Source: a virus. From it: a stretch of DNA of 46,089 nt. Where the stretch lies: the IMG/VR virus record IMGVR_UViG_3300031521_000113, positions 1 through 46,089 of that record; one strand, written 5' to 3'. The notes beneath the pieces were generated by a model. The model saw nothing but the letters and a program-made list of their open reading frames with translations, made no database searches and was not told the origin of the DNA. This document shows positions 5,660 through 43,993 of this stretch, in pieces; position 1 is the stretch's first letter, and every line of letters starts with the position of its first letter. The position numbers and the translations under genes are program-made.

Positions 5660-5663
5660 GTAT

Positions 5664-5670: not shown

Positions 5671-5714
5671 TCACGTAAAATTTAATGAAGGATTGTATTT
5701 TACGTATATAAACA

Positions 5715-23822: not shown

Positions 23823-24062
23823 TTATTTTACCACCTTTTGATTTTTTAAAATTAGAAGAGCTTCTTTACATGCTTTATCAAACATATCATGTGAAGGAGA
23901 TTCCGCTCTAAAATTTGTTTTAATTATATCATATGCATAACCAACATCGGTGGTAGACTGGCCTTCTTCCATTAAAGTATCTTTAACAGTTGAAACCATA
24001 CTCATAACCCAATTGTTCCAATTGTTATTCACAGATTCTATTAATGATTTTAATTTTATCAT
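23823..24062 (-). CDS. Small protein with capsid-targeting-type N-terminus
   Basis: A 79-residue protein starting MIKLKSLIESVNN, the shared N-terminal peptide, with a possible (L/I)xE cut after Glu9 (L-I-E). The remainder (WVMSMVSTVKDTLMEEGQS and DMFDKACKEALLILKN) is helical and acidic-to-neutral. The function is unknown. It is wedged between the gp14-like and gp15-like genes with a 4-nt overlap upstream (ATGA) and 1 nt downstream, so it is translated with the neck genes, in agreement with a virion or internal-head location. Confidence 0.65.
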   Translation of the reverse strand: MIKLKSLIESVNNNWNNWVMSMVSTVKDTLMEEGQSTTDVGYAYDIIKTNFRAESPSHDMFDKACKEALLILKNQKVVK

Positions 24063-24532
24063 ACTTGTCTATTTACTAGGCTTAATTTACTTAATCTTGA
24101 ATAATGAGTATTAACAATAATAGATAATGACTTATCTGCTATACCTCCTAAGAATTGTTCTTGAACGACATTATCAATTTCATGATATCGCTTGTTAAAC
24201 TCTACAATATCACCGACTTCAGGATATACATTAACCAATTTTAAATTGTCTTCTCTAAACTTAAATACAACGGTTTGATTTCTATCAGGGCCAAATTGGT
24301 CATAAGAAGTATCAATATCGGCTCTATCGATAAGACATGTACATTCAACTCCTGGCCAAAACATTTTACCATTTTGGGGATTGGATTCCCCATAGATATT
24401 AATGAGAGTTTGTTCTGGACAAATCTTATAGATGAAGATTTCAGTCTGTATGACATCACCCACAAGTTCTGCATTAAAACTTGCAACAAGTTTCAAATCT
24501 CTCGGGCTGAAAAATCTGCCTAATAATCCCAT
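24059..24532 (-). CDS. 14: Neck protein, T4 gp14-like
   Basis: A 157-residue protein, shorter than T4 gp14 (256). It carries MGLLGRFFSPRDLKLVASFN at the start, a central CLIDRADIDTSYDQFGPDRN, and YPEVGDIVEFNKRYHEIDNV, which parallels the GDLIYFP...FEINWVEP strand pair in T4 gp14. The order upstream of the gp15-like gene also fits a head-to-tail connector. T4 gp14 sits on the gp13 ring at the portal exit. The assignment is by motif order and position, so other head-completion proteins cannot be excluded. Confidence 0.55.
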   Translation of the reverse strand: MGLLGRFFSPRDLKLVASFNAELVGDVIQTEIFIYKICPEQTLINIYGESNPQNGKMFWPGVECTCLIDRADIDTSYDQFGPDRNQTVVFKFREDNLKLVNVYPEVGDIVEFNKRYHEIDNVVQEQFLGGIADKSLSIIVNTHYSRLSKLSLVNRQV

Positions 24533-24534
24533 AA

Positions 24535-25002
24535 TTATGATTGTTGACCGTGAATTTTAATTAATTCATTGGCTAATTCACGGATTCTTTCAAACGCGAA
24601 TTCTTCTCCTTGTCCTCTCGGTTGACTAATTCTTGTCATACATTTTAAAATTTCTTCGCCAATTTGAACTTCTTTTTTCTCTGTTGGGTTTGACATGTCT
24701 GTTTCTGGATTTGTTTGTATACCTGCTTCTTTTACAAATTTAGCATCATTTTCGTTATCTTGATATCCATATTCTTTTGCTAAAATTCTGGCTTCATCCA
24801 ATGCCACACGTTTTGCTGTGGTTATATCTTTAATATATCCCATTCCAACCGCCTCAACTCGATGATATGAGATTGGAGTAGTTCCAGCATTCATGAAAAC
24901 TTTCTTTAGTCCTGAGGCAACTAATGATTCGTTCACGTTTGTACTTTCTTTAAGCAATTTAAATTGATTGCCTCCGACATTTTCAAATAATATTGTTTTC
25001 AT
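24535..25002 (-). CDS. Unknown protein of the neck gene cluster
   Basis: A 155-residue protein starting MKTILFENVGGNQFKLLKES, which again contains an FxLLKE stretch close to the targeting-type peptide. Residues about 30-80 (SLVASGLKKVFMNAGTTPIS, then AVGMGYIKDITTAKRVALDE) form a mixed alpha/beta core. The C-terminal half is acidic and helical (IGEEILKCMTRISQPRGQGE). No family is recognised. The gene runs on from the 25006 gene and into the gp14-like gene with 2-3 nt spacers, so it is part of the neck operon. Confidence 0.6.
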   Translation of the reverse strand: MKTILFENVGGNQFKLLKESTNVNESLVASGLKKVFMNAGTTPISYHRVEAVGMGYIKDITTAKRVALDEARILAKEYGYQDNENDAKFVKEAGIQTNPETDMSNPTEKKEVQIGEEILKCMTRISQPRGQGEEFAFERIRELANELIKIHGQQS

Positions 25003-25005
25003 AGT

Positions 25006-25497
25006 TTATTTATCTTCAAAGTAATTGTCTTCTGTGTCTGGAAAGTCTTGGTCATTATTACCTTCTTTTTCCAAAATTTCATCTTCGATTTTATCCTTGT
25101 TAGTTTGAATATAATCGTTAACAGCTGTTTTCAATGTTTCAAATTGTTCACGTGACAATTTACTGAAATTATTAATTTCTTTGTGTTGTCCTTGTTCTGA
25201 AGTAATTGTGACAGATACAAAATCCCAATCAATCAGGTTTACTTCTGAACTTTCTGCTGGTGAAGATTTTTCAGGTGGCCCAAACATTCCTTTTGCTTCT
25301 GTTCCTGGTTGTGAGTCATATTCAAAACTCACTGTAACTATAACACCATCGGCATCAGTAGTTAATCCAGGAATTACAAGAGAATCAAATTCGATTTCGT
25401 AATCATCAAAAGTTCCAGACGATGCTTCATTTAATTGTTTTTTATACATCTCTTTTAAAACTGTTTTGATTAGTGGTTTAAGTTTATTTGTTTTCAT
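25006..25497 (-). CDS. Unknown acidic protein with targeting-type N-terminus
   Basis: A 163-residue protein. I chose the ATG at 25497 (MKTNKLKPLIKTVLKEMYKK), 1 nt after the stop of the gp13-like gene, over a TTG 9 nt upstream. The N-terminal LKPLIKTVLKE is a variant of the shared LKxLLxE peptide, followed by QLNEASSG, another (L/I)xE site. The body (about 30-130) is beta-rich (FDDYEIEFDSLVIPGL, then VIVTVSFEYDSQPG). The last 40 residues are very acidic. No family is recognised. The N-terminus and the neighbouring genes suggest a packaged or virion-internal protein. Confidence 0.6.
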   Translation of the reverse strand: MKTNKLKPLIKTVLKEMYKKQLNEASSGTFDDYEIEFDSLVIPGLTTDADGVIVTVSFEYDSQPGTEAKGMFGPPEKSSPAESSEVNLIDWDFVSVTITSEQGQHKEINNFSKLSREQFETLKTAVNDYIQTNKDKIEDEILEKEGNNDQDFPDTEDNYFEDK

Positions 25498-25498
25498 A

Positions 25499-26698
25499 TT
25501 ATCCAATGTATATAAATAACGGAACTCGTTTAAGTGTTTCTTGCATTTGTTCCGCTTGTAAGGCCTGATTTTCCATTAATTGTTTTTGACTGGCTGCAAC
25601 TAACGTTTCTCTTAATTGTGTAATTAAATCTCCTTTTTCTTGTTGGGCTTCGTTACGCATTTCTGCGCCGTCTAATGTTACTTCTGCTCCAGGTATAGGA
25701 ATAGATTGATATTTTTGACGAACCATTCCTAATATTTCCTTACATAAAGCCAAGAAATATTTACGAATCCACTGTTTACCAACCGAATTAATTGTACTAT
25801 AAGTGATGTTATTATATGGAATGTTAGCATAATCTGCAACGCTTCCGTTTGGTGCCGATAACGAACCGCTTATTCTATCATTACGAACCATATAGTTAAA
25901 ATATACTTTAAATGAATACGTAGGGATTGGAAATAATTTTAATTTGTTGTTAGTCAATTCGAACGAATATGCAGATTTACGAACCATATCGTTAAACTCA
26001 ATAGCCTGCATACGAAGTAAATCTTCGAAAATTGGAGTCATTAAGAATTGAACTGCGGGAGAGTATGAACCGAATCCCATTTCGTTTAATACGTTAGAAT
26101 AACTCATTCCAGTCATACTCATTGGGTCATAAATACGGGCTGATGCAGGAGGGAAGTCGTGGAAAATTCTCATAACTTCAATACGATTACAATTTTCAAC
26201 CTCATTTGCCCAAAGTTCTTGTAAATCATAGGTTTGTTGTAATGGTTTTGTAATAACAAATCCCTTTTTCCAATCAGCATAACCACCAACACCGACTTCT
26301 CTTCCATATCCTTTTGCAATTTCAATTACGTAAGGTAAGTTATCCGCAGCCACCGAACGTCCTGTCAAATTTCCTAAAGCAGAAATGTTTTGACCTTGGA
26401 ATGTCAATAAATAATTCTGAATATTCATTTGGTTTACTTGTGCGGCATATTCATTTACAGCTTCTTCAAATGCTGCGTAAAAGTTAACATCCAATAATTC
26501 TATGTCAACGATTGGGTATCCCAATCTATATGCCGCCCATATTGCCGAAGATTGTGCATCCGCCTGAAAGTCCAAATCAACATCGTAAAATCCATAAGGA
26601 GTACGTTTAATGACCACGGAACCACTTCCTGGCCATCTTACTCTATCCTGGTCAACAAGAGTTGTTGGGTTTGTTATTGGAGTTGTTACATCGCTCAT
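25499..26698 (-). CDS. 13: Neck/head-completion protein, possibly T4 gp13-like
   Basis: A 399-residue protein, conserved in many T4-like phages. Landmarks are WAAYRLGYPIVDIELLDVNF near the N-terminus, RIFHDFPPASARIYDP in the middle, FEDLLRMQAIEFNDMVRKSA, TNNKLKLFPIPT and, late, NSVGKQWIRKYFLALCKEIL followed by GAEVTLDGAEM. The end PLFIYIG follows an amphipathic helix. It is the first gene of the neck cluster, upstream of gp14- and gp15-like genes, as gene 13 is in T4. T4 gp13 (309) is smaller and the similarity is not obvious by eye, so gp13 is inferred from order. It is clearly a structural protein. Confidence 0.5.
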   Translation of the reverse strand: MSDVTTPITNPTTLVDQDRVRWPGSGSVVIKRTPYGFYDVDLDFQADAQSSAIWAAYRLGYPIVDIELLDVNFYAAFEEAVNEYAAQVNQMNIQNYLLTFQGQNISALGNLTGRSVAADNLPYVIEIAKGYGREVGVGGYADWKKGFVITKPLQQTYDLQELWANEVENCNRIEVMRIFHDFPPASARIYDPMSMTGMSYSNVLNEMGFGSYSPAVQFLMTPIFEDLLRMQAIEFNDMVRKSAYSFELTNNKLKLFPIPTYSFKVYFNYMVRNDRISGSLSAPNGSVADYANIPYNNITYSTINSVGKQWIRKYFLALCKEILGMVRQKYQSIPIPGAEVTLDGAEMRNEAQQEKGDLITQLRETLVAASQKQLMENQALQAEQMQETLKRVPLFIYIG

Positions 26699-26724
26699 AG
26701 TGTTATACGTCTCTATCTATCCAA

Positions 26725-26731
26725 ATAAATA
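26725..26731 (-). promoter_or_regulatory. TATTTAT motif before the gp13-like gene (divergent region)
   Basis: The sense strand reads ATATTTATTTGG, 26 nt before the ATG at 26698. The lysozyme motif lies on the opposite strand in the same 78-nt spacer. Confidence 0.4.
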
Positions 26732-26764
26732 TAGAAACTAAGGTCGTTCCTTCCATTTTCTATC

Positions 26765-26771
26765 TATTTAT
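26765..26771 (+). promoter_or_regulatory. TATTTAT motif 5 nt before the lysozyme start
   Basis: The sequence reads CTATTTATTACTTATG. It is the first element of the plus-strand accessory operon, with 5 nt spacing and no Shine-Dalgarno sequence. Confidence 0.55.
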
Positions 26772-26776
26772 TACTT

Positions 26777-27325
26777 ATGATTAAACTTGGAAAAATTATA
26801 AAAGAGATTATGGATGCAATTCCACCAAATAATGTACAACAAGCGCAATCTAATGTTATTTCGTCTGATTTCGTAAATCACATAAAAATGGTGGAAAACG
26901 GGCAAAAAGTTGGTTATGATAAAATTAAAAATTTATGGTTCCCTCATAAATCCGTTGAAGGAGGATTTCCGACGATAGGATATGGTCATAAAATACAATC
27001 TTCGTCAGAATTAAATTCTATGAATAAGGGAATTACTGATAAAGATGTGGAAAATCTTTTAAAATCAGATTTATCTATAGCTAATAAACATGTCCACGAT
27101 TATATTAAAAACAGATATAAAGTGGATATACTGTTAACACAAAAACAAAATGAAATGTTAACTGATTTTGTATTTAATTTGGGCGGATTGAAAAAATTTC
27201 CAAAGTTTGTAGATGCTGTGTTAAGAAATAAATGGGATGTCGTAAAACATCAATATATCAGAAATTCTTCTGGAAAAGAACTAAAAGGCAGAAATAAAGC
27301 ATTTTACGATAGATTTTTAAAATGA
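26777..27325 (+). CDS. GH24-type lysozyme with targeting-type N-terminus
   Basis: A 182-residue protein. Residues about 35-70 hold the muramidase signature: Glu in MVENGQKVGYDK, then KSVEGGFPTIGYGHKIQ, where the Thr before IGYGH corresponds to T4 lysozyme Thr26. The C-terminal lobe has QKQNEMLTDFVFNLGGLKKF and YIRNSSGKELKGRNKAFYDRF. It cuts peptidoglycan for lysis or entry. The N-terminus MIKLGKIIKEIMD resembles the shared packaging-type peptide, so a virion-borne lysozyme is possible; no signal peptide is visible. It is the first gene of the plus-strand operon, 5 nt after a TATTTAT motif, with a 4-nt overlap into the next gene. Confidence 0.8.
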   Translation: MIKLGKIIKEIMDAIPPNNVQQAQSNVISSDFVNHIKMVENGQKVGYDKIKNLWFPHKSVEGGFPTIGYGHKIQSSSELNSMNKGITDKDVENLLKSDLSIANKHVHDYIKNRYKVDILLTQKQNEMLTDFVFNLGGLKKFPKFVDAVLRNKWDVVKHQYIRNSSGKELKGRNKAFYDRFLK

Positions 27326-29154
27326 AAATAAATCGATTTCCAACCTATTTTTGGTTATCTCCACAAGGAGATATTATCGATTTGGATGTAATGTTGCATC
27401 GTACATATATTGTAAGATTAGGATTTGCTGAAATGGAAAATGCCTATGATGCCCATTGGTTTAGAGGTGTCACATACAGACATTCATTTAATTCTGTTTT
27501 TTTACGTGGTAAACATGATTTAGACAAACAACAAAGAGTTAAATTAGAAGAGTTGTTTTTTGAAGACACATCTATTAGTGATATAGAAATGGAGTATGAA
27601 AATGGAAAAACAAAAATTATTTTTTCAAAAAATATACAAAAAGAGTCTATAAATAAAAAAGTTGATATTTCTAGTCGTGTAGTGTACAATAAACGGTTTA
27701 TGAATGAAATAAAACAGTTAATTATGGAAGGGGTTCGTGAAAAGGCATTGGAAGACTTTATCAAAAAGTCCATTATCGGAACGGAATGGCAAGGTAAAGT
27801 TTTTATTGCCGGTGGCTACGTGCGTGATGAATTCATGGGCAAAGACCCAAAAGATTTAGATTTACTTGTTAATGCTCCTAATGGCGGAATTGAATTTGCC
27901 AAATGGCTGACCAAAAAGGTTGGCGCCTACAAAGGTGGCCAAACCGAAGAAGACCCAGGTTCAAATCCTGTCATTTTTCCACGATTTGGAACTGCGAAGT
28001 TCAATCTTCGTGGTGTTATACATAAAGGTATTGATTTATCTGATATGGACATCGAATCGGTAATGCCCCGTAAGGAACAATACACTGCTGGTTCAAGAAA
28101 GCCAACCGTAACAGGCGGCGAACTAAAAGATGATGTCGAACGTCGTGATTTTACTGTTAATAGTTTGTTAAAAGACTTGTCCACAGGAGAAATCCTCGAT
28201 TTGACTGGTATGGGCAAATCTGATATCAAGGCAGGCATTGTCCGAACTCCGTTAAATCCAGATAAGATATTCACAGACGACCCACTTCGTATGTTACGTG
28301 CGATTCGTTTCGCTGTAAAATATCAATGGAAACTGCCAATGTTTATGTTGAGAGGTTTAAAGAAAAACGCTTCACAACTACCAAACATATCTCAGGAACG
28401 TATTCGTGATGAATTGAATAAAATGTTAGTTACTGGAACACCTGATAAAGCCATTAAAATGCTTAAGGTCACAGGATTGCTTCCTTATGTAATTCCTGAA
28501 TTAATACCTGCGGTTAAAATGGTACAAAACAAACATCATAAAGCTGATGTATTTCAGCATACGTTAGATGTATTGGGCAAAACCCAACCAGTTCTTGTAC
28601 AAAGATTGATGGGATTGTTTCATGATATCGGTAAGACTGTTACTAAAACTGTAGACCCTGCTACTGAAGGCGTTCATTTTTATGGTCATGAACTTGCCGG
28701 CGAACGTATGGTGGAAGTAATAATGAGCAGACTGAAATACCCACGGGAATTAATTGATGCAGTTAAGTTGGGAGTAAGAAACCATATGCGATTGAAACAA
28801 GCAGGGGATGAAGGTGTAAAAATGAAAGATAGTACATTAACTAAGTTTCGTAACGAAATGGGCGACCAACTGGAAAATGTATTAAATTTAATGCATGCGG
28901 ATAATATTGCACATTCTGAAGCATCATCCATGCCTAACCAAATTTCTGGTATTCGTCAGCGACTTGAGAAACTTAAAAATGTTCCACTTAAACCTAAGAT
29001 GCCAATTTCAGGTAAGGATTTGCAAGAAATAGGCTTAAAACCTGGGCCAATTTTTAAAGAAATAATGAATTCTATAGCAGAAGCCTGGTATGAGAATCCT
29101 GGTTTGACGAAAGAGGAAGCATTGGAAATTGCCAAAAAGATTGCAAAATTATGA
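27322..29154 (+). CDS. CCA-adding tRNA nucleotidyltransferase/poly(A)-polymerase-type enzyme with HD domain and N-terminal module
   Basis: A 610-residue fusion. Residues about 8-55 are a WxxPxG-type module (FWLSPQGDIIDLD, then LHRTYIVRLGF). Residues 127-136 read MNEIKQLIME, like the shared cleavable peptide, directly before the enzyme. Class II tRNA nucleotidyltransferase motifs follow: FIAGGYVRDEFMG (164-169 GGxVRD), DLD at 178-180, a further acid near DMD (241-243), RRDFTVNSL (274-282) and DDPLRMLRAIRF (319-330). An HD-type phosphohydrolase region has FQHTLDVL (His413) and LFHDIGK (434-435). The enzyme would rebuild or add CCA ends on tRNA, while HD domains in bacterial homologues remove 2',3'-cyclic phosphates. 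The (I/L)xE site near Glu136 could release the enzyme after packaging. Confidence 0.9.
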   Translation: MKINRFPTYFWLSPQGDIIDLDVMLHRTYIVRLGFAEMENAYDAHWFRGVTYRHSFNSVFLRGKHDLDKQQRVKLEELFFEDTSISDIEMEYENGKTKIIFSKNIQKESINKKVDISSRVVYNKRFMNEIKQLIMEGVREKALEDFIKKSIIGTEWQGKVFIAGGYVRDEFMGKDPKDLDLLVNAPNGGIEFAKWLTKKVGAYKGGQTEEDPGSNPVIFPRFGTAKFNLRGVIHKGIDLSDMDIESVMPRKEQYTAGSRKPTVTGGELKDDVERRDFTVNSLLKDLSTGEILDLTGMGKSDIKAGIVRTPLNPDKIFTDDPLRMLRAIRFAVKYQWKLPMFMLRGLKKNASQLPNISQERIRDELNKMLVTGTPDKAIKMLKVTGLLPYVIPELIPAVKMVQNKHHKADVFQHTLDVLGKTQPVLVQRLMGLFHDIGKTVTKTVDPATEGVHFYGHELAGERMVEVIMSRLKYPRELIDAVKLGVRNHMRLKQAGDEGVKMKDSTLTKFRNEMGDQLENVLNLMHADNIAHSEASSMPNQISGIRQRLEKLKNVPLKPKMPISGKDLQEIGLKPGPIFKEIMNSIAEAWYENPGLTKEEALEIAKKIAKL

Positions 29155-29699
29155 TTAAATTAAAAACATTATTAAATGAGGAATTTTCAAGAAAGGATTT
29201 TAGTAAAGCATTTTTTTTAGCGTATAGTTCCATTTTTGATATTGATATGAAAGATATTGGATATTTTAAATCCGAGTATCTTCTTGCGCCTTCATATGCT
29301 CATTTATATTTTACACTTGGTATTAAAATCATATATAAAGCAAAACCATATTGTATATATCATAAATTTTTATATTATAAATTTCCAAAAGAAGAGATGG
29401 TCGGTTTAACATCTGAAGAGTGGATGCAAATGTTAAAGTATGCTGATAAATTTCCACCTCAAAATATTGATAGCGAATCAATACGAAAACCAAATAAATT
29501 ATTTGTATTTTGGACAGGTGTATATCAAGGAGAAGATTTTTTTCATAGTGATTTTATTGGAGAAGAAACTAAGGGACTTCATAGTATATCCGATGTTGTG
29601 GAAAAGACAAAAGAAATTATTGATAAATCCGATTCGGATAATGATACCACTGATGATATAGTTCCTATAATTCCAAATAGTAAATTAGTAACAGTATGA
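29151..29699 (+). CDS. Unknown protein with capsid-targeting-type N-terminus
   Basis: A 182-residue protein starting MIKLKTLLNEEFSRKDF. The peptide MIKLKTLLNE ends in (L)xE, with a possible cut after Glu10. The rest is aromatic-rich (about 30-70, MKDIGYFKSEYLLAPSYAHL, then HKFLYYKFPKEEM) and contains EEWMQMLKYADKF and LFVFWTGVYQGEDFF. The C-terminus is acidic and probably disordered. No family is recognised. It is translationally coupled to both neighbours by ATGA overlaps, in the operon of packaged-type enzymes. Confidence 0.6.
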   Translation: MIKLKTLLNEEFSRKDFSKAFFLAYSSIFDIDMKDIGYFKSEYLLAPSYAHLYFTLGIKIIYKAKPYCIYHKFLYYKFPKEEMVGLTSEEWMQMLKYADKFPPQNIDSESIRKPNKLFVFWTGVYQGEDFFHSDFIGEETKGLHSISDVVEKTKEIIDKSDSDNDTTDDIVPIIPNSKLVTV

Positions 29700-30826
29700 T
29701 TAAACTAAAGTCATTAATTTTGGAATCAAAACAAAGTATAATCAATCTTGGTTATCCTGAAATTATTGCATCTTTATTTTATGAAAAGTTTGGAAATATT
29801 GCATATATCATTGCAAATTGGTATAAACAGTATCACGCATCACAGTTAGGTAAAGATTGGTTTCTACAAGCTCACCATAGAAGTTCTGGAAATTTTGGAT
29901 TATTTGATATGGTAGGTATGTATTATTCCACAGATACCGTTGAACATTATTCGAAAGAATCGGAACGTCTCGGATTAAGTAATGATGATTATGTTGAATC
30001 TGAAATGGATGTTAATTATTTAAAAAAACAACGAGAGTTATGGAAAAATGAAATAAAAGAAAATTTATTTAAATCATCATTTTTTACGGCTAATACCATA
30101 ATAATTGACATAGAATCCGGTAAATTAAAGAACTTAGCTCCATACAAAGATTTAAAGTTTTGGGAGGCTGCATTGAAATATGACGAACGTCGTGTGTTTA
30201 GTGAAATGACTCCGCTTCGAGTTTATAGCAATGGATATAAATGGATAAATGTTGGAAAACGATGTCATCTGTTAGGACATTACATGGCTAATTGTGGAAG
30301 CGCAGGATTGATGAGTTGGGATGCAGATAGAACATTATTAGGGTTATTTGACGTAAATAACAAACCACATGTGGTAGTTACATATTCTCCAAATGAAAAA
30401 CGTATAAGTGGCGACGAGGGTCCAGGATATTCTGAAGTAAAGTCAATATATCATGAATATGTTCTGGATTTAGCAAATTATCTAGGAGTGAGTTTTGATG
30501 CTAATAAGAGTAAATCTAAATTTTTACAATTAAAATATCGTTTAAAAGATAAAGCAAGTAACATCAAACGATTAGATAAGTATTGTGATACGTTTAACGA
30601 ATATTTTAGTTTTAACATCGGAAACAAAGTTTATTATACCAATGGAGATTCTATTATTTCAGCTGACGATATGAAAACGTTAAGAGACGCCATAAAAGAT
30701 AAAAAAATTAAGTTGAAACAGTATCCACGAAATATAATAAGAGCTGCATTTAATCGTTATAACGTTCCAGATATTCAACAGTTAGGGATTAAATACTATA
30801 ACGTATATAACCTCAATGATTTATGA
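29696..30826 (+). CDS. PcfJ-like protein with capsid-targeting-type N-terminus
   Basis: A 376-residue protein starting MIKLKSLILESKQ. The N-terminal half is helical. Residues about 190-275 hold a recognisable block: GKRCHLLGHYMANCGSAG, DRTLLGLFDVNNKPHVVVTY, GDEGPGYSEVKSIYHEYVLD. This order (a small-residue H/C-x-N-C(G/V)-(S) turn, then a strand with RxLLxLxD and a conserved polar tail) resembles PcfJ-like proteins of conjugative elements and phages, which occur as modules in polyvalent proteins. The function of PcfJ is not settled. The last 100 residues are an AT-rich lysine-dense helical region. It is coupled to its neighbours by ATGA overlaps. Confidence 0.55.
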   Translation: MIKLKSLILESKQSIINLGYPEIIASLFYEKFGNIAYIIANWYKQYHASQLGKDWFLQAHHRSSGNFGLFDMVGMYYSTDTVEHYSKESERLGLSNDDYVESEMDVNYLKKQRELWKNEIKENLFKSSFFTANTIIIDIESGKLKNLAPYKDLKFWEAALKYDERRVFSEMTPLRVYSNGYKWINVGKRCHLLGHYMANCGSAGLMSWDADRTLLGLFDVNNKPHVVVTYSPNEKRISGDEGPGYSEVKSIYHEYVLDLANYLGVSFDANKSKSKFLQLKYRLKDKASNIKRLDKYCDTFNEYFSFNIGNKVYYTNGDSIISADDMKTLRDAIKDKKIKLKQYPRNIIRAAFNRYNVPDIQQLGIKYYNVYNLNDL

Positions 30827-32760
30827 TAAAATTAAAATTGTTATTAGAAAATAAAAATATTATTGTTGGTATAATAACTGACGATGATGAAATAATTTCT
30901 CATAAAGATGCTATAGACCACACAGAAGTGATGATAAAAATGCGTCATGTCACATATGGAAAAGGTTTAAAAAATAAATGGAGATACAATAAATCAAATA
31001 AAACTCTTTATTGGTGGGATATGCCTAAAAAAGTAGATAGTGAACTAGTAATAGACCATCTTAATAATAAATACAATCAACAAGTTGTAAATATATCAGT
31101 AATTGAGACATCAGATTCTCAAGCCGAATACATGAATCGATTTAATAAAGCGCACGGACTGTCAGAAAGTATAAAAACAGAGACAGTTACTATCTATCAA
31201 GGTAGAAATGTATACAATAAAGGTACACGATATTTCACGACAAAAAAAGAATGGGCCCAAAATTACACACAGTCGGGTCGTGAAAATGAAATTACTATAG
31301 CAAAAATTAATCCAAAAGTAATTTACCAAAAACAACCACTTCCAGAAGCAACCGACGAATCTATGATGGAAAAAGCCATAGAAGAAGCAAAAAAGTTAGG
31401 ATATAAAGCAATATGGTTAGATGAAGGTGTTAGAGAACCACATTCCATTTTTGTCATGGATATGGGGGTTGTAAAGATTATTAAACCTTCGACTATAAAA
31501 GAAGATTCTAATGAGATAGATTCGCAGTCATCTAATGACACTTTTAAAATGTATCATGGTGGAAAACGTTGGAATGTCATTCCAAGTGAGATTTTACCTA
31601 GTAAAAAAAATAGATATGAAGGTGGTGTAGGAATTTATCTTACTAACAATCTTAATACAGCAATAAAATATTCAAAAGGAAGTAGAGTCGTCCAGTTAGT
31701 GGAAATAGATAAAAATTTTAAAGATATAACAACTGTAGATATACCTCTTGATAAATTGTTAATATTTTTAAAAGGATTATATGGATTAAAACATAGAAAA
31801 GAAATCATGTCTGATATAATAAATTTTTCCAAAAGAACTAATAAATCTAATATTCCTGCTGAAATACTAAACAATTTAATTGTAAATTATGAAGCAGGAG
31901 CGGGAAATATAGGAGTTGAAATATCTAAATATTTTGTTGAACTTGGTATTGATGCTTGTATTCAAAAAAATCATGGTGATGAAATTTGGTTGATTATATT
32001 TAATCCAAAAATAATAAAACGTGTTAGTGTTATAAATCAATCAAAAATAACATCTAACGATTTTGATATGTTGCTTGTTCCAATTAATGAAGGTGTTATA
32101 TTGATAAACAAAGATGATAAAAGTGATATAGACAAATACATCAGTGACATGGAAAGGTTAGTTGTAGATTATTTTAATAGAAACAAATATGGCGTGGATT
32201 CTGACAGTTTAATAAGTTTCATGCAGAATGTATCTAACAATTTACCATCAAATGATTTTCCATTTAAAGTTAGATACATTTTTCGTGGAAATAATGCTGA
32301 GGGATATTATGATAAAGACACCAAAACTATCATAATTGTTGTTAGCGCTTTTACTGAGTGGGAACTTGGATTTAATAGTGAGTATGAACAAATTTATAGA
32401 TGTTGGTCTGTAAATTTTAAAAAAATATCACGTGTGTTTATGCATGAATTTACACATTATATTCAAGATGTTTATCGCCAGGAAAAGTCTGGTGATTATA
32501 AACTCCCATCTAATTGGTCAAATAAGTCAAAATATTACAAACGTGGATGGGAACAACAAGCGCATGCTATTGCATATTTGGAAAAATTAAAACAGGATTT
32601 AAATACCGAAAATCCTAAAACGATTTTGTTAAATTTAAAAAAGACAGGACTTCTTAATCAAGAACTTTTAAATAATTTAAAAAAATCTGATTATAAATCA
32701 TGGAAAGCTATTATGAAACAAGTCATAATGACAACGATTGCAGATATAGAAAATAAATAA
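30823..32760 (+). CDS. Polyvalent-type protein: two ADP-ribosyltransferase-like domains plus HExxH metalloprotease
   Basis: A 645-residue protein starting MIKLKLLLENK, the shared packaging-type peptide. Residues about 40-85 are one WRYK module (NKWRYNKSNKTLYWW) as found twice in the gene at 7930. Residues about 120-220 look like an ART-PolyVal-like domain: TVTIYQGRN (125-128 YQGR), RYFTTKKEWAQNYTQSG, KLGYKAIWLD, SIFVMD. A second such domain spans about 240-405: FKMYHGGKRW, GVGIYLTNNLNTAIKYSKGS, LGIDACIQKNHGDEIWLIIF. The C-terminal zincin has FMHEFTHYIQDV (HEFTH 541-545) and a downstream WEQQAHAIAYLE with Glu577 as the likely third zinc ligand. Polyvalent proteins of this design are thought to travel with DNA into the host. 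It is coupled upstream by ATGA. Confidence 0.75.
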   Translation: MIKLKLLLENKNIIVGIITDDDEIISHKDAIDHTEVMIKMRHVTYGKGLKNKWRYNKSNKTLYWWDMPKKVDSELVIDHLNNKYNQQVVNISVIETSDSQAEYMNRFNKAHGLSESIKTETVTIYQGRNVYNKGTRYFTTKKEWAQNYTQSGRENEITIAKINPKVIYQKQPLPEATDESMMEKAIEEAKKLGYKAIWLDEGVREPHSIFVMDMGVVKIIKPSTIKEDSNEIDSQSSNDTFKMYHGGKRWNVIPSEILPSKKNRYEGGVGIYLTNNLNTAIKYSKGSRVVQLVEIDKNFKDITTVDIPLDKLLIFLKGLYGLKHRKEIMSDIINFSKRTNKSNIPAEILNNLIVNYEAGAGNIGVEISKYFVELGIDACIQKNHGDEIWLIIFNPKIIKRVSVINQSKITSNDFDMLLVPINEGVILINKDDKSDIDKYISDMERLVVDYFNRNKYGVDSDSLISFMQNVSNNLPSNDFPFKVRYIFRGNNAEGYYDKDTKTIIIVVSAFTEWELGFNSEYEQIYRCWSVNFKKISRVFMHEFTHYIQDVYRQEKSGDYKLPSNWSNKSKYYKRGWEQQAHAIAYLEKLKQDLNTENPKTILLNLKKTGLLNQELLNNLKKSDYKSWKAIMKQVIMTTIADIENK

Positions 32761-32764
32761 ATTT

Positions 32765-33838
32765 ATGATGACTCTAAAAGAAATGTTATTGGAAAGACAA
32801 GTTAATCAATCTGAACGGTTGGGTTGTTTGATGGCTATGATTGATGAAGATGTAGCAAAAAAGATTTTAGATTTTAATAAAAAGCTCATTCATGATGATG
32901 ATTTATATCATGAATTTGATGAAAATGGTAAAGATGAATATGGTAGAGAAGACGAATGTCATGTAACTGTTCGATATGGATTTGTCGAGGATTTAAATGA
33001 ACTTGAAGTAAGACAATTATTAAAAGGACAAAAAGAATTTTTGATTGAAGTTAACGGAGTAGATACCTTCAACACCAATCCAAAATATGATGTAGTTAAA
33101 TTCAATGTGTCTTCTCCATTGTTAAAACGATTAAATGACTTATCAGGTATATATCCAAACAAATCAAACTTTCCTGATTATCATCCACATCTAACTTTAG
33201 CATATGTAAAAAAAGGTAAGTTTCCACATAAAAAGAACATAAGCATAAAAATACCTGTAAAATCAATCTGTTATTCTCCTATACGTGGTAGCAAATCATA
33301 TTTTAATTTAACTGAAAGTGTGTCAGGAATAGATTCTCGAATTGAAAAATTAGAACAAGAATGGGAAAGACTTGACTCAACAGGAACAGGTGGAATAAAA
33401 CAAAAAGAAATTGGACAAGAAATAGAGAATTTGAAAAATCAAAAAAAGATAGTTCAGCCAAATAGTTTTGTGGATGTAAATAGAGCAAAGGAATTGTTTG
33501 CGCAGATGCGACATTCATTGAATGAAATTAAGTTAACAAAAGATGATGCACAAGAAATACTTCATAAATTAGGAGTATTAGATGATACTCCAGATTTACA
33601 ATCGGATTATGGAATTACACAAGAACAATCTCACTTACTTCTTAACACTATTCCTTATAATGGTGGAGAATGGAATATTCCAGATTGGGCCATTCCTGCT
33701 GTAAAAGGAGAGATAACTGACCATGTATTGGTTCTTAGAGACATAGCGCAAGATGCACGAAACGGGGGCGAAGTAGGACAGGCATTAGCAATAAATCGAC
33801 AGGCGAATAGATTGGAATCTTTAATTAATACGGTCTAA
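32765..33838 (+). CDS. 2H phosphoesterase-type protein with targeting-type N-terminus
   Basis: A 357-residue protein starting MMTLKEMLLERQ, whose TLKEMLLE matches the shared LKxLLxE peptide. Residues about 20-165 form a 2H phosphoesterase domain with the two paired motifs: CHVTVRYGF (His66, Thr68) and HPHLTLAYVKKG (His142, Thr144), and a Gly/Pro-rich close KSICYSPIRGSKS. 2H enzymes act on 2',3'-cyclic or 2'-5' phosphodiesters of RNA ends or cyclic nucleotides; phage Acb1 anti-CBASS proteins belong to this superfamily. A coiled-coil linker (about 185-225) precedes a C-terminal helical domain (about 235-357) with TKDDAQEILHKLGVLDD and DWAIPAVKGEITDHVLVLRD. The substrate is not known. Confidence 0.75.
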   Translation: MMTLKEMLLERQVNQSERLGCLMAMIDEDVAKKILDFNKKLIHDDDLYHEFDENGKDEYGREDECHVTVRYGFVEDLNELEVRQLLKGQKEFLIEVNGVDTFNTNPKYDVVKFNVSSPLLKRLNDLSGIYPNKSNFPDYHPHLTLAYVKKGKFPHKKNISIKIPVKSICYSPIRGSKSYFNLTESVSGIDSRIEKLEQEWERLDSTGTGGIKQKEIGQEIENLKNQKKIVQPNSFVDVNRAKELFAQMRHSLNEIKLTKDDAQEILHKLGVLDDTPDLQSDYGITQEQSHLLLNTIPYNGGEWNIPDWAIPAVKGEITDHVLVLRDIAQDARNGGEVGQALAINRQANRLESLINTV

Positions 33839-33853
33839 TAATATACACTACGA

Positions 33854-33860
33854 TATTTAT
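33854..33860 (+). promoter_or_regulatory. TATTTAT motif 5 nt before the second 2H gene
   Basis: The sequence reads ATATTTATAAGAGATG, with a weak purine run (AAGAG) within the 5-nt spacing. Confidence 0.5.
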
Positions 33861-33865
33861 AAGAG

Positions 33866-34867
33866 ATGAAACTAAAGACTTTACTTCAAATTAACGAATG
33901 GATATCTCATGGTATTGCGGTAAACAGGTCGCCGGATGATAATTTATATCCTACGCCTGGTGGTATGAATGATGGGAATCCACATTGGAATACAAAAGAT
34001 AGTTTCGATGTAAATAGTTCGAATATAGCCGAAGGCAAAGGATGGAATGATGATGTTGAGGATTGGGATGGTATTGTTGAGGGTGATGACTGGTTTTGCT
34101 ATATGGAAGGCAACGATTGGCATAACAAACGGTCTGGGGCATCAATTTACATCAATGAGGACGATAAACCACATAAGATGTGGATTAAGATAAAAACGCA
34201 CGGGTTACGCAAAAAGGGCGATACTAACGAGTCATATAAGGACAGAATTAAAAAACATACAAATAAAGTGGCTCGTTCTTGGATGTCAGCAGCAAAAGAA
34301 ATCCATAATAACACGGATTTGAATGAAGTTGGAAATCCAATTCATATATCTTGGAAACAAGCGTTTAAAGAAGCTTTAAACAGCCCAAAAGTCAAGTTAT
34401 ATGTCGCCGAAGTAGGAGAAAAAGAAATAACTCCATTAGCTGACCCTATCAATTTTACTCCCAGAATTGGAGAATCAAATATGCAAAAAATAAGTTATTC
34501 CGCGATTGTGTTAACTGAGGCCGACCAATCAAAATTGAAGTCTATGTTTAAAGACCAAACGCCTGATGGTTGGACGGTCTATGCTCATCATATGACAATT
34601 AACATGGGAGAATTACAACCACAACAAAAACCGGATTTAGGAAAATCGGTTGTATTAACTTGTACACACATTGGAACATCAGATAAATGCATAGCATTGA
34701 GAGTTAGTGGATATTTTTCAACTAATCAGACTCCACATATAACTTTATGTGTAAATACGATGAATGGTGGCAAACCTGTAGATTCTAACAAGATTACAAA
34801 CTGGCAAACCTTATCACAACCAATTACTGTAAATGGTATTGTTACGGAAATTCCATCAAAAAGATGA
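33866..34867 (+). CDS. Second 2H phosphoesterase-like protein
   Basis: A 333-residue protein starting MKLKTLLQINEW, a variant of the shared peptide. The N-terminal part (about 15-100) is acidic and Trp-rich (DDVEDWDGIVEGDDWFCYME), and about 100-165 is basic and helical. The C-terminal domain (about 195-333) has two H-x-T motifs, AHHMTINMG (His232, Thr234) and PHITLCVN (His281, Thr283), spaced 49 residues apart, with YSAIVLTEAD before the first and VNGIVTEI at the end. This is the two-fold pattern of 2H phosphoesterases and of tRNA-ligase cyclic-phosphodiesterase-like repair domains. A TATTTAT motif lies 5 nt before the ATG. The stop abuts the convergent SWIM gene. Confidence 0.6.
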   Translation: MKLKTLLQINEWISHGIAVNRSPDDNLYPTPGGMNDGNPHWNTKDSFDVNSSNIAEGKGWNDDVEDWDGIVEGDDWFCYMEGNDWHNKRSGASIYINEDDKPHKMWIKIKTHGLRKKGDTNESYKDRIKKHTNKVARSWMSAAKEIHNNTDLNEVGNPIHISWKQAFKEALNSPKVKLYVAEVGEKEITPLADPINFTPRIGESNMQKISYSAIVLTEADQSKLKSMFKDQTPDGWTVYAHHMTINMGELQPQQKPDLGKSVVLTCTHIGTSDKCIALRVSGYFSTNQTPHITLCVNTMNGGKPVDSNKITNWQTLSQPITVNGIVTEIPSKR

Positions 34868-34869
34868 TG

Positions 34870-36624
34870 TTAATCGTAATATGTGACGTTAAATGGCCCT
34901 TGTTTTGCTACATCATCTATCGCTTCAAACAAATTACTTTTTCGAGTTGAAGATATTTTAGTTTTTAAGAATCTACCCAATGCTACCAAATGTTTACAAA
35001 GTCCTTCACCATAGTCATATGCCGGTTTTGGTTTTCTATTAGCTGCTCCGTTTAAACTATCAGGTCCAACTTGACTTGCGTTTTTTGCTGCATCGTTATA
35101 AGCAAACCGATACATGAAATCTGGACATTCACAATCTACTTTACACTTCATTTTCATGGCATCACTTCTTTGTCCGACGTTACCCTTTAAGAATGTTATT
35201 GACCCTCTAAACGGTTTGTCCGTCACAGTTGTCTGTGGGTTTGATTTATATCTAAAATTCCATTGTTCCTTGCCTTCTTCAACACTCACAGGAAGAGAAC
35301 GTGCGGTAACGTTTGCCGCACGGTCTTTTCGTTCTGGTGTGGTCAATTTAAGAAGGTCGGTATACGACATATCTTCTGAAATATTTTCTTCTAAATCTTT
35401 TGAGAGTGAGGTTTCTTTATTTGTGTTTTCATCTTGAAGATAATCACAATGTTCCTCAATTGCCAAATCTCTCAATTCTTTTAATTGTCTTGAACTTAAC
35501 GCTCTTTCTGTACTATACTGAAAACTTAACGTCATTTCTCCTTGATAATTGTATTTAACAACTCTAACGAATCCGAGACGAAACATCATTCTATATATGT
35601 CTTTAGTAGGTGCGTATCCCATATTTTTTAGATATTTTTCAGCCCAATATCTATGTTCTTCAAATGACACAGGATGTAATTTATAATTCGTATCCATCCA
35701 CCAAAATTTCATTCCTACTGTAGTTTGTTCTTTTAAAACGGATTCTTCAAAATCGGTTATTTGTTTACTTGTTTCACAATCAATTATTTTGGTGATTCTT
35801 TTTTCTATTGCCAAATCTTTTAATGCTTTCATCCTTTTTTGATTTGGAAAATCTAAATTTTGATTCCATCCTTTATATCTAAAATAAATTACATCATCAC
35901 CAAAAACCAGTCTCATAAACCCTAATTTATAAAGTTCATTATAAGCATCGCCAGGGTCGTGATTTCCTAATTTATCTAATACCTTCTCAGCATATGCTAT
36001 ATGTTCTTCATAACCGACTGCGTGAAATTTTCCATCTGGGTCCAACCAACCACCATATACATCATTATAATCATGCGAGTCATCATCTACATCATACCGA
36101 GATTCATTCATCGATTTATGTAACTTTATAATCTCCTTGATTATTTTTTTAAGGTTTGATTTTTTAATTGTCTCTAATGCCATAAATTTGTTTCCTTGCC
36201 CAAAGTTTTCATAGATTGGAAGTGTTCGTGTATCTCTATCTCTTTTAACTCCTGTTGCTCCTTTTTCAATTCCCAAATCTTTTATTTGTTTTAATAAGTG
36301 ATTCGAAATTTGGCGCCCTTTTTCATAATCATAATCAATTACTTTCTCATCTCCATCCTTATAAATTCCAATTCTTGCCCAGCCCAAGTTTAATAATTGA
36401 TAATATGGCGAGTTACCATGTTTATCAGTTTTCCATTTATCTACATCTAACGGAGATAACTTGAGACTGTTAATAAGATAGTTTCTTGCCCAATCTACAT
36501 GAGACTGACCTTCAACGCTATAAAATTTTCCTTCCGGACTCATCCACCAAAATGAACCTTCTCGACTTTCTGGTTGACTTGGTGGTATGAATTTTAATTC
36601 TATTAACGACTTCAACTTAATCAT
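34870..36624 (-). CDS. Three-module WxxPxGxF protein with C-terminal SWIM zinc finger
   Basis: A 584-residue protein starting MIKLKSLIELK. Three copies of a module occur at about 24-120, 180-265 and 296-385: (F/G)WW(M/L)(S/D)PxGKF or the variant FWWMDTNYKLHPV, then EEHxxxAxxYL and L-x-x-LGW/F-x-RV. The first two end in DLxIEK-type helices and the third in DLAIEEHC. Between modules lie LKKIIKEIIKLHKSMNES and ESVLKEQTTVG, so packaging-type helices with (L/I)xE-like sites separate the modules. The C-terminal region (about 420-584) has YTDLLKLTTPERKDRAANVT, WNFRYKSNPQTT and a SWIM finger: CKVDCECPDF (Cys498, Cys500) with LCKHLVAL (Cys543, His545). SWIM fingers bind nucleic acid or protein. It is convergent with the second 2H gene. 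Confidence 0.7.
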   Translation of the reverse strand: MIKLKSLIELKFIPPSQPESREGSFWWMSPEGKFYSVEGQSHVDWARNYLINSLKLSPLDVDKWKTDKHGNSPYYQLLNLGWARIGIYKDGDEKVIDYDYEKGRQISNHLLKQIKDLGIEKGATGVKRDRDTRTLPIYENFGQGNKFMALETIKKSNLKKIIKEIIKLHKSMNESRYDVDDDSHDYNDVYGGWLDPDGKFHAVGYEEHIAYAEKVLDKLGNHDPGDAYNELYKLGFMRLVFGDDVIYFRYKGWNQNLDFPNQKRMKALKDLAIEKRITKIIDCETSKQITDFEESVLKEQTTVGMKFWWMDTNYKLHPVSFEEHRYWAEKYLKNMGYAPTKDIYRMMFRLGFVRVVKYNYQGEMTLSFQYSTERALSSRQLKELRDLAIEEHCDYLQDENTNKETSLSKDLEENISEDMSYTDLLKLTTPERKDRAANVTARSLPVSVEEGKEQWNFRYKSNPQTTVTDKPFRGSITFLKGNVGQRSDAMKMKCKVDCECPDFMYRFAYNDAAKNASQVGPDSLNGAANRKPKPAYDYGEGLCKHLVALGRFLKTKISSTRKSNLFEAIDDVAKQGPFNVTYYD

Positions 36625-36648: not shown

Positions 36649-37404
36649 TCATTTCATTAGTTTTCTTCGTTCTCTTAGAATAGTGGCTTTAGAAGTTCCG
36701 TATTTTGATTCTAATTGTGGAATAGTATATATTCCGACGAGTATGTCTTTATGTAATTTTTTGCGAATTTTATTGAGATGATGTTTTCTTTCTGATATTC
36801 TTTTCTTTATTTCATCACTCATTGGGCCCCGTTTTTTACCTTTCATACCGTTATCATATGAATAGTTAATTTTTCGATTTTTTAACATTTCATTACGTTT
36901 TTTAAATTCGTTCAAACCTTCTTCCGTTCCGTATTTTGCAATGAACCAATCTAAGGTGTAACGGCCTATGGATTTAGTTTTCATTTTACCAACTGTATTT
37001 TCGGTATGTTTTTTACCGAACATAGGATTCAATTCACCTAAATTTATTAATCGCATTTTTTCTATAAATTTATCACGATTTGGATTATAAGTTATATTAT
37101 CGCCTCCTTCTGCTTTTGGACATATGTTATACCCTATTTCTCTTTTGTATGACTTTAATGTAGAAAGATAATGGTTTTCACGTTCAAAAAGAATTTCCTG
37201 TTTTTGGTCGGTTTCTTCGATAACTTCAAATATGAATTTGTCTTCTCCATATTTGTTCCACGCATTTTGAAGTTTTGGATTTATATGATATCCACCACGA
37301 AGATATTGTTTATGGTCATCCCAACGCAAATCTATATCTTTTGAACTTCCAATGTAAAATTTATCATTAACTAAATTTGTAATTTTATATATTCCACTTT
37401 TCAT
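36649..37404 (-). CDS. GIY-YIG homing endonuclease with NUMOD3-type motifs
   Basis: A 251-residue protein. The N-terminal nuclease domain reads MKSGIYKITNLVNDKFYIGS (GIY and YIG motifs), then DLRWDDHKQYLRGG (conserved Arg/His), HINPKLQNAWNKYG, KFIFEVIEE (catalytic-type Glu) and NHYLSTL, YNICPKAEGG. DNA-binding motifs follow: LGELNPMFGKKHTENTVGKM (NUMOD3-type), GMKGKKRGPMSDEIKKRISE and a C-terminal helix-turn-helix, YTIPQLESKYGTSKATILRE. It lies directly downstream of the major capsid gene, a classical site for phage homing endonucleases. The upstream 130 bases hold the gp23 terminator. Confidence 0.92.
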   Translation of the reverse strand: MKSGIYKITNLVNDKFYIGSSKDIDLRWDDHKQYLRGGYHINPKLQNAWNKYGEDKFIFEVIEETDQKQEILFERENHYLSTLKSYKREIGYNICPKAEGGDNITYNPNRDKFIEKMRLINLGELNPMFGKKHTENTVGKMKTKSIGRYTLDWFIAKYGTEEGLNEFKKRNEMLKNRKINYSYDNGMKGKKRGPMSDEIKKRISERKHHLNKIRKKLHKDILVGIYTIPQLESKYGTSKATILRERRKLMK

Positions 37405-37534: not shown

Positions 37535-39319
37535 TTATACTGTGTCCAAATCGGCAATAAGTACCTTGCCATAAAACTCTGGCCTTACAATTTTCTTCGC
37601 GTAACGGGTCATAACACCACGTCTTGGCGTGAAGTTCACTGGGTCATACACCAATGGTGTTTGAACGAGTGGGATGTAAGGAGCATATACTGCGCCTGTT
37701 TCGAGGAAGTTATTTCCACGGAAGCCCAACAAGATGACGTTATCGGTCATATATGGGTTTTTGTAAACTTGGAAGCGACTTGCGAAACTACCAACACGGC
37801 TTACGCCCATGGCAAATTTGGCCTGGTCACCGTCAGTATTTACAACGAATCCTGGGATAGATTCCAAGATAGTTGACACTGTTGGGGAGACAACCATAAA
37901 GTTGGCGCCACCACGAAGGGTCAATTGATGAATTCTGTTAGATACCTTCTGAATCTTGTTACCAAGAGTCTGATACCAAGTTGCCTTGGTGTAGTATCCA
38001 CCTGTTCCTGCGACGGTCTGAGTTACCTTGGCATAGCCTGTTCCACTTGGAACGATTTCGGTATTCAAGGCTGCGCTCCAACGTTCAGTATTGATTGCTG
38101 GTGCGGATGTAATCAACATGTCCAAGATTTCCAAATCAATTTCCATAGAAACGTATTCGGAAAGAAGGGCGGTCAATTCTGCTTCTGCATCAATGCTGTG
38201 GTAAGCATTCAAGTCTTGAGCAAGTTCAGGTGTCCAAACTGCTTTCAACTTACGTGTCTTAGCCACGATTGGCTCGCTGTTCAATTGGAGGTTAACTTCT
38301 GGAATACCGATGTCTTTGTTAAGACCCGTATCAGTTGTTGACTTACCAGTTGGATTCACGAAACCGTTGTCGAATCCTGCGCCGCCGTTGCTGTTATTAA
38401 CGTTATCTTCGAAATCACCACGGTCTGATGGGGAAGGTTGTGCGTTGTAAACAATGTTCAATCCAGTTGAACCACTTGGAAGAGCGGAAGCTGAAATGAC
38501 GAACTGAACTTCGCCGGTTGAAGCAACAAACTTCGTAAACGATGGGAAGTATGTTGGTGCGGCAGCAATAACTGAACCAGTTGTTGCAATTCTGTATGGA
38601 ACGAATGAACGAACTGCCAAAGCATCAAAAGGATTACCGAGAGCGGTAGATACCGATTGGAAGTTTGTGGTAGTAAGTGTAATCAACTGACCGGCAGCCA
38701 ATGAGGCGGAAACACTGTTCACAGCGCTTTGAACGGAACCTGATGCTCCGGTTTGTGTGTAGTAGTTATTCAACCAGTTAATGTCTTCCATTGTTGATGT
38801 TGCGGCAGATGCGGAAACCGTTGCCGTTTTATCATTCAATGTGTAACCAAAACGGCCTGCGCCATAAAGACCACCAACTGCGGAATCTGTTGAACCGAGT
38901 TTGATTCCTGTTCCACCGAACAATGATTGATAATATGAACCGGATTGGTCTGCTGGAGCTCCACCTTGGGCAGTACCATACTTGAAATCCAAGTAAAATA
39001 CCAAACCAGAAGGAAGGTTCATAGGTTGTACTGATACGAATTCCTTAGCTGCGAATTCGGCGAATACACGACGAACGAGTGGGAGAGCTACGCCGGCCCA
39101 TTGTTCTGAGTTTGCGGAAGTTCCTGTTGCTGTTGCTTCTTCAATCAATTGTTTAGCTTGATTTTCGAGCAAGATAGACATGTTGGACTTCTCGATATCA
39201 CTCTTAATGCCTTCAAGTAGACCTGTCTTATCCCATTTGGTCACAAGACCACGGGTTTCTTGCATCAAACGAGCTTGAGGATTTAGAGTATTTGTCAATA
39301 ATGACTTTATATTTTCCAT
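37535..39319 (-). CDS. 23: Major capsid protein, T4 gp23-like
   Basis: A 594-residue protein (T4 gp23 is 521). The N-terminal propeptide (MENIKSLLTNTLNPQARLMQ...) includes LLENQAKQLIEEATAT, where an (I/L)xE cut by a gp21-type protease is plausible near residue 60. The mature part has the gp23 signature VRRVFAEFAAKEFVSVQPMN and LPSGLVFYLDFKYG. Later landmarks are KTRKLKAVWTPELAQDLNAY, IDAEAELTALLSEYVSMEID, NRIHQLTLRGGANFMVVSP and FGMVTRYAKK-type C-terminal residues RRGVMTRYAKKIVRPEFYG. It forms the hexameric capsid shell. The upstream AAGAG is a weak Shine-Dalgarno sequence. The terminator downstream and the scaffold gene upstream fit a capsid operon. Confidence 0.95.
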   Translation of the reverse strand: MENIKSLLTNTLNPQARLMQETRGLVTKWDKTGLLEGIKSDIEKSNMSILLENQAKQLIEEATATGTSANSEQWAGVALPLVRRVFAEFAAKEFVSVQPMNLPSGLVFYLDFKYGTAQGGAPADQSGSYYQSLFGGTGIKLGSTDSAVGGLYGAGRFGYTLNDKTATVSASAATSTMEDINWLNNYYTQTGASGSVQSAVNSVSASLAAGQLITLTTTNFQSVSTALGNPFDALAVRSFVPYRIATTGSVIAAAPTYFPSFTKFVASTGEVQFVISASALPSGSTGLNIVYNAQPSPSDRGDFEDNVNNSNGGAGFDNGFVNPTGKSTTDTGLNKDIGIPEVNLQLNSEPIVAKTRKLKAVWTPELAQDLNAYHSIDAEAELTALLSEYVSMEIDLEILDMLITSAPAINTERWSAALNTEIVPSGTGYAKVTQTVAGTGGYYTKATWYQTLGNKIQKVSNRIHQLTLRGGANFMVVSPTVSTILESIPGFVVNTDGDQAKFAMGVSRVGSFASRFQVYKNPYMTDNVILLGFRGNNFLETGAVYAPYIPLVQTPLVYDPVNFTPRRGVMTRYAKKIVRPEFYGKVLIADLDTV

Positions 39320-43397: not shown

Positions 43398-43435
43398 GAA
43401 GACGGACGGCTTAATTGTCGTCCGTCTTCTTTTTT
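43398..43435 (+). terminator. Strong terminator after the 42825 gene
   Basis: A 13-bp stem with one G-U pair: 43398-43410 pairs with 43417-43429, loop TTAATT, followed by TTTTTT. It ends the plus-strand operon. The convergent minus-strand gene at 43411-43986 uses the upper arm and loop as its last codons and stop. Confidence 0.92.
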
Positions 43436-43986: not shown

Positions 43987-43993
43987 GATGTTA

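Follow-up and report, generated by a model that had tools for sequence, protein, structure and literature searches.

A short N-terminal tag shared by diverse predicted phage enzymes resembles the T4 capsid targeting sequence

Introduction

Mutagenesis of the T4 internal protein IPIII assigned targeting to residues 4 and 7 and processing to residues 8 and 10, with gp21 cleaving after L/I-x-E (PMC9026906). The ip genes of T-even phages have been identified by signal sequence, and Ip1–3 counter GmrSD (PMC12373910). Packaging of ADP-ribosyltransferase (ART), 2H, and Nudix proteins in phage heads has been proposed from context (PMC9503650). Here, we analyze a 46,089-base stretch of viral DNA, IMG/VR record IMGVR_UViG_3300031521_000113 (hereafter the window), a T4-like phage fragment that has a Gp23 capsid gene and a T4-type baseplate gene (1815–2669) and in which many unrelated genes begin with variants of the peptide MIKLKxLLxE. 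We consider it likely that this tag acts as a T4-type capsid targeting sequence (CTS) that loads swappable enzyme cargo for injection, some of it as cleavable fusions, and that a gp21-type protease cuts the tag off. The T4 mechanism was already known; the lineage, the scale, and the predicted cleavable cargo joints are new here.

Results

All eleven tagged N-termini listed in an initial annotation of the window translate as quoted there; the range that it gave for them, 23823–36624, proved too narrow, as tagged genes span 12212 to 42164. Multiple comparisons place the tag beyond chance. First, a hydrophobic-x-x-hydrophobic-hydrophobic-x-E pattern occurred at 6 of 50 window N-termini, compared with 0.5 (maximum 3) after N-terminal shuffling. 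In a sample of relatives comprising 80 loci retrieved through the capsid protein, the strict pattern was found in 100 of 1,100 genes versus a mean of 10.0 (maximum 19) when N-terminal residues were shuffled, and tag matches in larger relatives were 29 versus 5.1 shuffled (G001), 13 versus 3.2 (G002), 15 versus 3.0 (G003), and 19 versus 4.5 (G005). The motif search across related genomes that the annotation had suggested as a check thus gave an excess far above shuffled expectation, with varied domains behind the tag. Second, 65% of 85 non-redundant tags, selected regardless of residue 10, have E10, compared with 7% of 2,594 other genes, and another 16% carry E9, for which L7-x-E9 gives an alternative (L/I)xE match, although the two classes can overlap; the positions used in selection were L4 (100%), L/I7 (97%), and L/I8 (90%). 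Conserved positions 4, 7, 8, and 10 are the targeting and processing positions of T4 IPIII. Third, when 2.9 million viral contigs were scanned at the DNA level, MIKLKxLLxE gave at least 120 stretches, with up to three per contig and 105 of 139 true open reading frame (ORF) starts among the matches listed, versus 38 stretches, never more than one per contig, and 4 true starts for a composition-matched scrambled pattern. Finally, as positive controls, T4 IPII, IPIII, Alt, and gp24 were picked up by the same regular expression; SPbeta, Staphylococcus phage K, and contigs G059, G060, G068, and G077 served as negative controls and had no tag excess.

Proteins behind the tag are unrelated, as 139 representatives align solely in MIKLKxLLxE. 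The 379 tagged ORFs form 190 clusters, and tagged proteins overall form ~140 sequence clusters, counts that are approximate because the looser regular expression takes in chance matches such as terminase. Pfam matches among tagged proteins of relatives include ART-PolyVal, zeta toxin/AAA, GNAT, PolyA_pol, 2H/Acb1, Nudix, Mom, M23, and others; the ~140 clusters include ART, 2H/Acb1-like, CCA polymerase, Nudix, zeta/PNK, GNAT, and lysozyme proteins. A PADLOC run over the tagged cargo gave scattered single matches only, with no defense theme.

In the window, a run of seven plus-strand genes (26777–34867) has the tag at the start of six and inside the seventh. MIKLGKIIKE (26777–26806) opens this cargo operon at a phage lysozyme (26777–27325; PF00959, 1.1e-10), followed by a tRNA CCA/poly(A) polymerase with an HD domain (27322–29154; PF01743, 7.6e-19). 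MIKLKTLLNE (29151–29180) begins a 182-residue ORF (29151–29699), MIKLKSLILE (29696–29725) a 376-residue ORF with no Pfam match (29696–30826), and MIKLKLLLEN (30823–30852) a multi-module ORF (30823–32760) with an N-terminal domain, ART-like and ART-PolyVal modules (PF18760, 0.00024, below cut-off), and a metalloprotease-type part whose HEFTH motif was read directly from the sequence. MMTLKEMLLE (32765–32794) precedes a 2H phosphodiesterase/Acb1-like protein (32765–33838) that matched PF13563 (6e-8) and the Acb1 profile PF23474 (5.7e-7), each over its cut-off; the Acb1 score was 29.8 bits against a cut-off of 27, and the broader 2H family scored higher; any catalytic activity is putative. Its homologues in G001, G003, and G005 are also tagged. 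MKLKTLLQINE (33866–33898) starts an ORF (33866–34867) with a phosphodiesterase-like module (PF08302, 0.00028, below cut-off), and homologues of this ORF begin MKLKTLLQIIE or MKLKTILLLGE.

Four tags lie on the minus strand. MIKLKHLIVE (13148–13177) begins a 321-residue ORF (12212–13177) that looked ART-like by eye only, and its homologue L211 retains the tag as MIKLKYLLSE. MIKLKSLIES (24033–24062) begins a 79-residue ORF (23823–24062) in which (L/I)xE also fits L7-I8-E9. A longer form, MKTNKLKPLIKTVLKE (25450–25497), begins ORF 25006–25497, where 25497 is an internal ATG of ORF 25006–25506, and the G001 homologue begins MKKEQLKILVREVLKE. MIKLKSLIEL (36595–36624) begins ORF 34870–36624, which contains three W-x-x-P/D-x-G modules and a SWIM-like module; these modules occur singly and tagged in relatives. 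Searches of viral contigs found no relatives of 12212–13177 and one identical fragment only of 29696–30826, and the predicted structures of 29696–30826 (from a single sequence) and 12212–13177 (from two) had pLDDT (predicted local distance difference test) values of 34–35; because these predictions are poor, the ART reading of 12212–13177 stays unconfirmed.

The capsid protein carries the same kind of signal. The window's Gp23-type major capsid protein (37535–39319, minus strand; PF07068, 1.8e-72) begins MENIKSLL in the register of the tag, capsid proteins of relatives as a rule begin M-x-x-[IV]-K-x-L-L, and the predicted propeptide cleavage site is IEE|A at residues 59–61 (39137–39145, minus strand). 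This [LI]xE|[AS] site, at ~residue 61, has E in 80 of 80 relatives and A or S at P1' in 79 of 80, across 27 distinct site sequences, and by sequence comparison it appears to be the counterpart of the gp21 site in gp23.

The internal helices reported in the initial annotation are all present (IKQLIME in the gene at 27322, LKELVDE at 4306, LKQIIRE at 5408, LKSVIKELVSE at 11280, and LKKIIKE at 36624), and the internal tag core occurs six times in the window versus 0.5 in block shuffles. What the annotation overlooked is that these copies mark joints between fused tagged modules. Four window proteins (30823–32760, 27322–29154, 32765–33838, and 34870–36624) combine multiple disparate domains in one polypeptide, and the modules occur apart in relatives. 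We searched the part after the tag glutamate of each tagged protein against all ORFs and scored the residues before each internal match, which lie outside the query. With the glutamate allowed anywhere from −2 to +1, the motif [LIV]xE was present at 30 of 50 non-redundant joints and in 16 of 20 partner families. Random internal positions gave 3.8 (standard deviation 1.8, maximum 10), and the joints of untagged proteins had the motif in 39 of 450 cases (9%). By contrast, tag positions 4 and 7 were at background level in joints. Retention of the processing half and loss of the targeting half match expectation if the site is cut. These figures come from a repeat with a stricter tag and the untagged control; a first version ([LI]xE within ±8, 59 of 133 versus 26.0 expected) was dropped because a truncated portal ORF had been taken as tagged.

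Individual joints often have stand-alone counterparts. In the CCA polymerase, the predicted cleavage joint FMNEIKQLIME|G (residue 136; 27697–27729, plus strand) corresponds to the start of stand-alone CCA homologues (MRISLKSILLEG in L173 and MIKLKMLLNEG in G005). In 30823–32760, predicted joint LSE|S (residue 115; 31159–31167, plus strand) precedes the first ART-like module and is supported by GLSE|NIKGKLTVYHGT in G005 and the stand-alone start MIKLKSLLSE|NIKGKLTVYHGT in L205; candidate joint IKE|D (residue 227; 31495–31503, plus strand) precedes the ART-PolyVal module, of which a stand-alone homologue starts MIKLKEVLEDLGNTFQMYHGG, and candidate joint INE|G (residue 423; 32083–32091, plus strand) lies behind the ART module. 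Predicted joint LNE|I (residue 254 of 32765–33838; 33518–33526, plus strand) reads SLNE|IKLTKDD in the window, and stand-alone L039 starts MIKLQHLLSEAVGVFLLTKDD. Predicted joint IGE|S (residue 203 of 33866–34867; 34466–34474, plus strand) precedes the phosphodiesterase-like module, and stand-alone L017 starts MIKLRPLIGE|VMINRTISYSAV. On the minus strand in 34870–36624, LKKIIKE (residues 158–164; 36133–36153) separates modules 1 and 2, LKE (residues 297–299) precedes module 3, and the joint LEENISE (residues 411–417; 35374–35394) precedes the SWIM-like module. Finally, L301 contains an internal homologue of 23823–24062 with HIKE at the joint.

These results bear on the alternative that survives best, namely that the tag is a plain interaction helix attaching its proteins to the prohead or to some other structure of the phage, with the glutamate as part of the helix, no cutting, and fusions that stay whole. 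Several window proteins do keep the full helix in internal copies (LKQIIREIILE, LKSVIKELVSE), but fusion joints lose the helix yet keep [LIV]xE and the capsid propeptide site is almost invariant, and we regard this alternative as improbable.

The tag is also tied to head genes. A gp21-type (S77) protease is encoded by 13 of 13 larger relatives, and among contigs of at least 20 kb with the tag pattern, 22 of 47 had Gp23 and 28 of 47 had S77, versus 2 of 20 for each (one match being below cut-off) among scrambled-pattern contigs. G037 has four tagged genes between its capsid and protease genes. A localization signal for a target other than the head, such as a membrane, the tail, or a replication compartment, is therefore very unlikely: short amphipathic N-terminal helices are in general able to bind membranes, but this helix is common to the capsid propeptide and to genes between protease and capsid, and the tag is associated with S77/Gp23 contigs. 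Least credible is a translational or compositional effect, in which A-rich starts and ATGA stop-start overlaps of an AT-rich phage favor M-I-K-L-K, because such overlaps in several operon genes and a G+C content of ~34% are countered by the enrichment of E10, conserved L7 and L8, varied codons, comparably AT-rich phages that lack the tag, and the rarity of the scrambled pattern at gene starts, with E10 and the scrambled control already refuting composition as a sufficient cause. An opening ATGA overlap could contribute to the initial MI, not to L4, L7, L8, or E10. Because tag copies use differing codons, the signal lies at the level of protein, not DNA; an origin of the common start in DNA or a promoter was ruled out by this variation.

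Around the capsid gene, a probable scaffold gene (39367–40938, minus strand) adjoins it and starts MINSELLKE|AIADA, with gene order and N-terminus as in G001, G002, G037, and G045. A conserved gene by the head genes has the tag-like start MIKLMELLHT (41856–41885, plus strand). A conserved, probable head-core protein (42825–43367, plus strand; 75 homologues) has the tag-like FSLKQIVENL near its start, and its homologues begin MIKLKxLLNE. The closest named capsid relatives are those of Microcystis phage Mel-JY01 and Flavobacterium phage immuto (~50% identity each) and Rhodothermus phage RM378 (36%); uncultivated relatives reach sizes of 251–369 kb. Mel-JY01, a cultured relative, itself carries the tag, in MIKLKSLLQE|IISDRVWHLTT and two paralogues. 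Nearby genes encode a GIY-YIG homing-type endonuclease (36649–37404) adjoining the capsid gene, a pyrimidine dimer glycosylase (43411–44013), and a NADAR protein (45039–45560).

We also made several side observations. A module with the form W-x-[SD]-P-x-G-x-[FL]-x-x-V-x-x-H and no Pfam name recurs in the window (34870–36624, 5405–5674, and 27322–27700), in tandem and alone after tags, and is found in cyanophage Syn9 (149735–150883) after a CTS-like start. W-N-S-D/N-I/L units repeat immediately behind the tag in 12212–13177 (minus strand) and likewise in G001 (23969–24880). Contig G070 has MLKLSNLLTE ahead of sequence resembling the window's 2H/Acb1-like protein (G070/G067 loci L364–L373 and L380–L383). 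A superoxide dismutase in L118 (2452–3084, minus strand) has an extension, MKLKKLIEQLE, ahead of the normal start that is possibly a tag. A TATTTATA-like box, usually 11–15 nucleotides upstream of the start codon, occurs in the window (26764, 33854, 36635, 42810, 5670, 11787, 12167, and others) and in relatives; 33% of tagged genes have it in the preceding 100 bases, versus 11.5% of others and 0 of 32 capsid genes, and it may be a promoter yielding very short or leaderless transcripts.

Discussion

From the motif, its position and excess, the S77/Gp23 link, the diversity of cargo, and the cut-site motifs at joints, we infer a sequence of targeting, cleavage, packaging, and injection, as well as the role of each enzyme. 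Residues 1–7 (M-I-K-L-K-x-L) would fold as a short amphipathic helix through which diverse proteins dock on the assembling prohead core, and the S77 prohead protease would cut at residues 8–10, (L/I)-x-E, freeing mature enzymes within the head that would then enter the host together with the DNA. The tag would be an exchangeable module ahead of unrelated domains, often in runs of neighboring genes. Fused cargo would keep the (L/I)xE cut site alone at each internal joint, and the protease would thus yield several enzymes. We give roughly even odds to the more specific proposal that this lineage makes its injected effectors as polyproteins with one N-terminal tag, cut by the prohead protease at (L/I/V)xE joints, and that targeting and processing, joined in the T4 signal, have separated in evolution; protease-cut cargo polyproteins were not described in the literature searched.

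Several points weigh against the CTS reading. A search for the S77 protease found none on the 46-kb window fragment. G001 keeps the window's gene order round scaffold, capsid, and NADAR and has its protease ~1.6 kb past NADAR, and because of this synteny the right end of the fragment probably falls 1–2 kb before the protease gene. No virion proteomics of the named relatives was found in the literature. The Fisher probability for joints of tagged versus untagged proteins (2e-16) is qualified by a joint window narrowed after a first look and by joints that are partly interrelated, and (L/I)xE is short, with many unrelated occurrences within these proteins. Certain tagged genes have no clear E9 or E10, including parts of family C5 and the gene at 41856, whose MIKLMELLHT lacks E at positions 9 and 10. 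The T4-like phages HTVC008M and Syn9 have no tag excess and zero MIKLK-form starts, so the tag expansion is lineage-specific and not a general T4-like trait. Finally, the tag is absent from phages with other head types, SPbeta and Staphylococcus phage K having no excess, but G067 and G070, scrambled-control contigs with no detectable S77/Gp23, have a mild excess; each may be a fragment or a relative that has diverged.

The initial annotation proposed that a large enzyme arsenal is packaged and injected with one address tag. The register of the tag, S77 in the larger relatives, the helix on the capsid propeptide and on head-core genes, its absence from phages with other head types, and the variety of cargo give this claim partial support; the protease gene is missing from the fragment, and packaging and injection are predictions. 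Its view that the system reaches beyond the known T4 internal proteins is apt for the cargo, but the principle and signal-based gene finding were already established in T-even phages (PMC12373910; PMC9026906). If the CTS reading is true, a ten-residue motif reveals from sequence alone what a phage injects at time zero, across a large uncultivated Gp23 phage group and with anti-CBASS-like, ADP-ribosylating, and RNA-repair enzymes among the proteins. The motif would also offer function hints for many hypothetical proteins and additional targeting peptides for protein delivery via phage heads.

Reportedly, Repoila described hotspots of ip genes in T-even phages in 1994; such hotspots are also the subject of Silas 2025 (PMC12373910). 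There, as here, varied proteins are recognized via a common leader, but the Ips are small GmrSD inhibitors with an anti-defense role demonstrated for Ip1–3, whereas the mature parts here include recognizable predicted enzymes. The ejection proteins of SPN3US and phiKZ (PMC5694885) are likewise injected and processed by a prohead protease after glutamate; their propeptides are mostly far longer (up to >100 residues), and no single short tag is common to many unrelated enzymes. Polyvalent or head-packaged proteins (PMC5512222, PMC9503650) are also injected multi-domain effectors, whose parts include ART, 2H, Nudix, GNAT, and metalloprotease-type domains; the evidence for them came from gene context and from fusions to MuF/portal proteins, and they were suggested to cut themselves, whereas in the present case the cargo is recognized by its tag and cutting is ascribed to the prohead protease. 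The T4 CTS of IPI, IPII, IPIII, and Alt is likewise an N-terminal ten-residue peptide with hydrophobic residues at 4, 7, and 8 and (L/I)xE at 8–10, precedes unrelated mature parts, and occurs in a group of phages that encode a gp21-type protease together with a Gp23 capsid. The consensus here is MIKLKxLLxE rather than the MKTYQEFIAE of T4, and the predicted cargo is much larger, enzymatically more varied, and arranged in operons, with processing sites at fusion joints.

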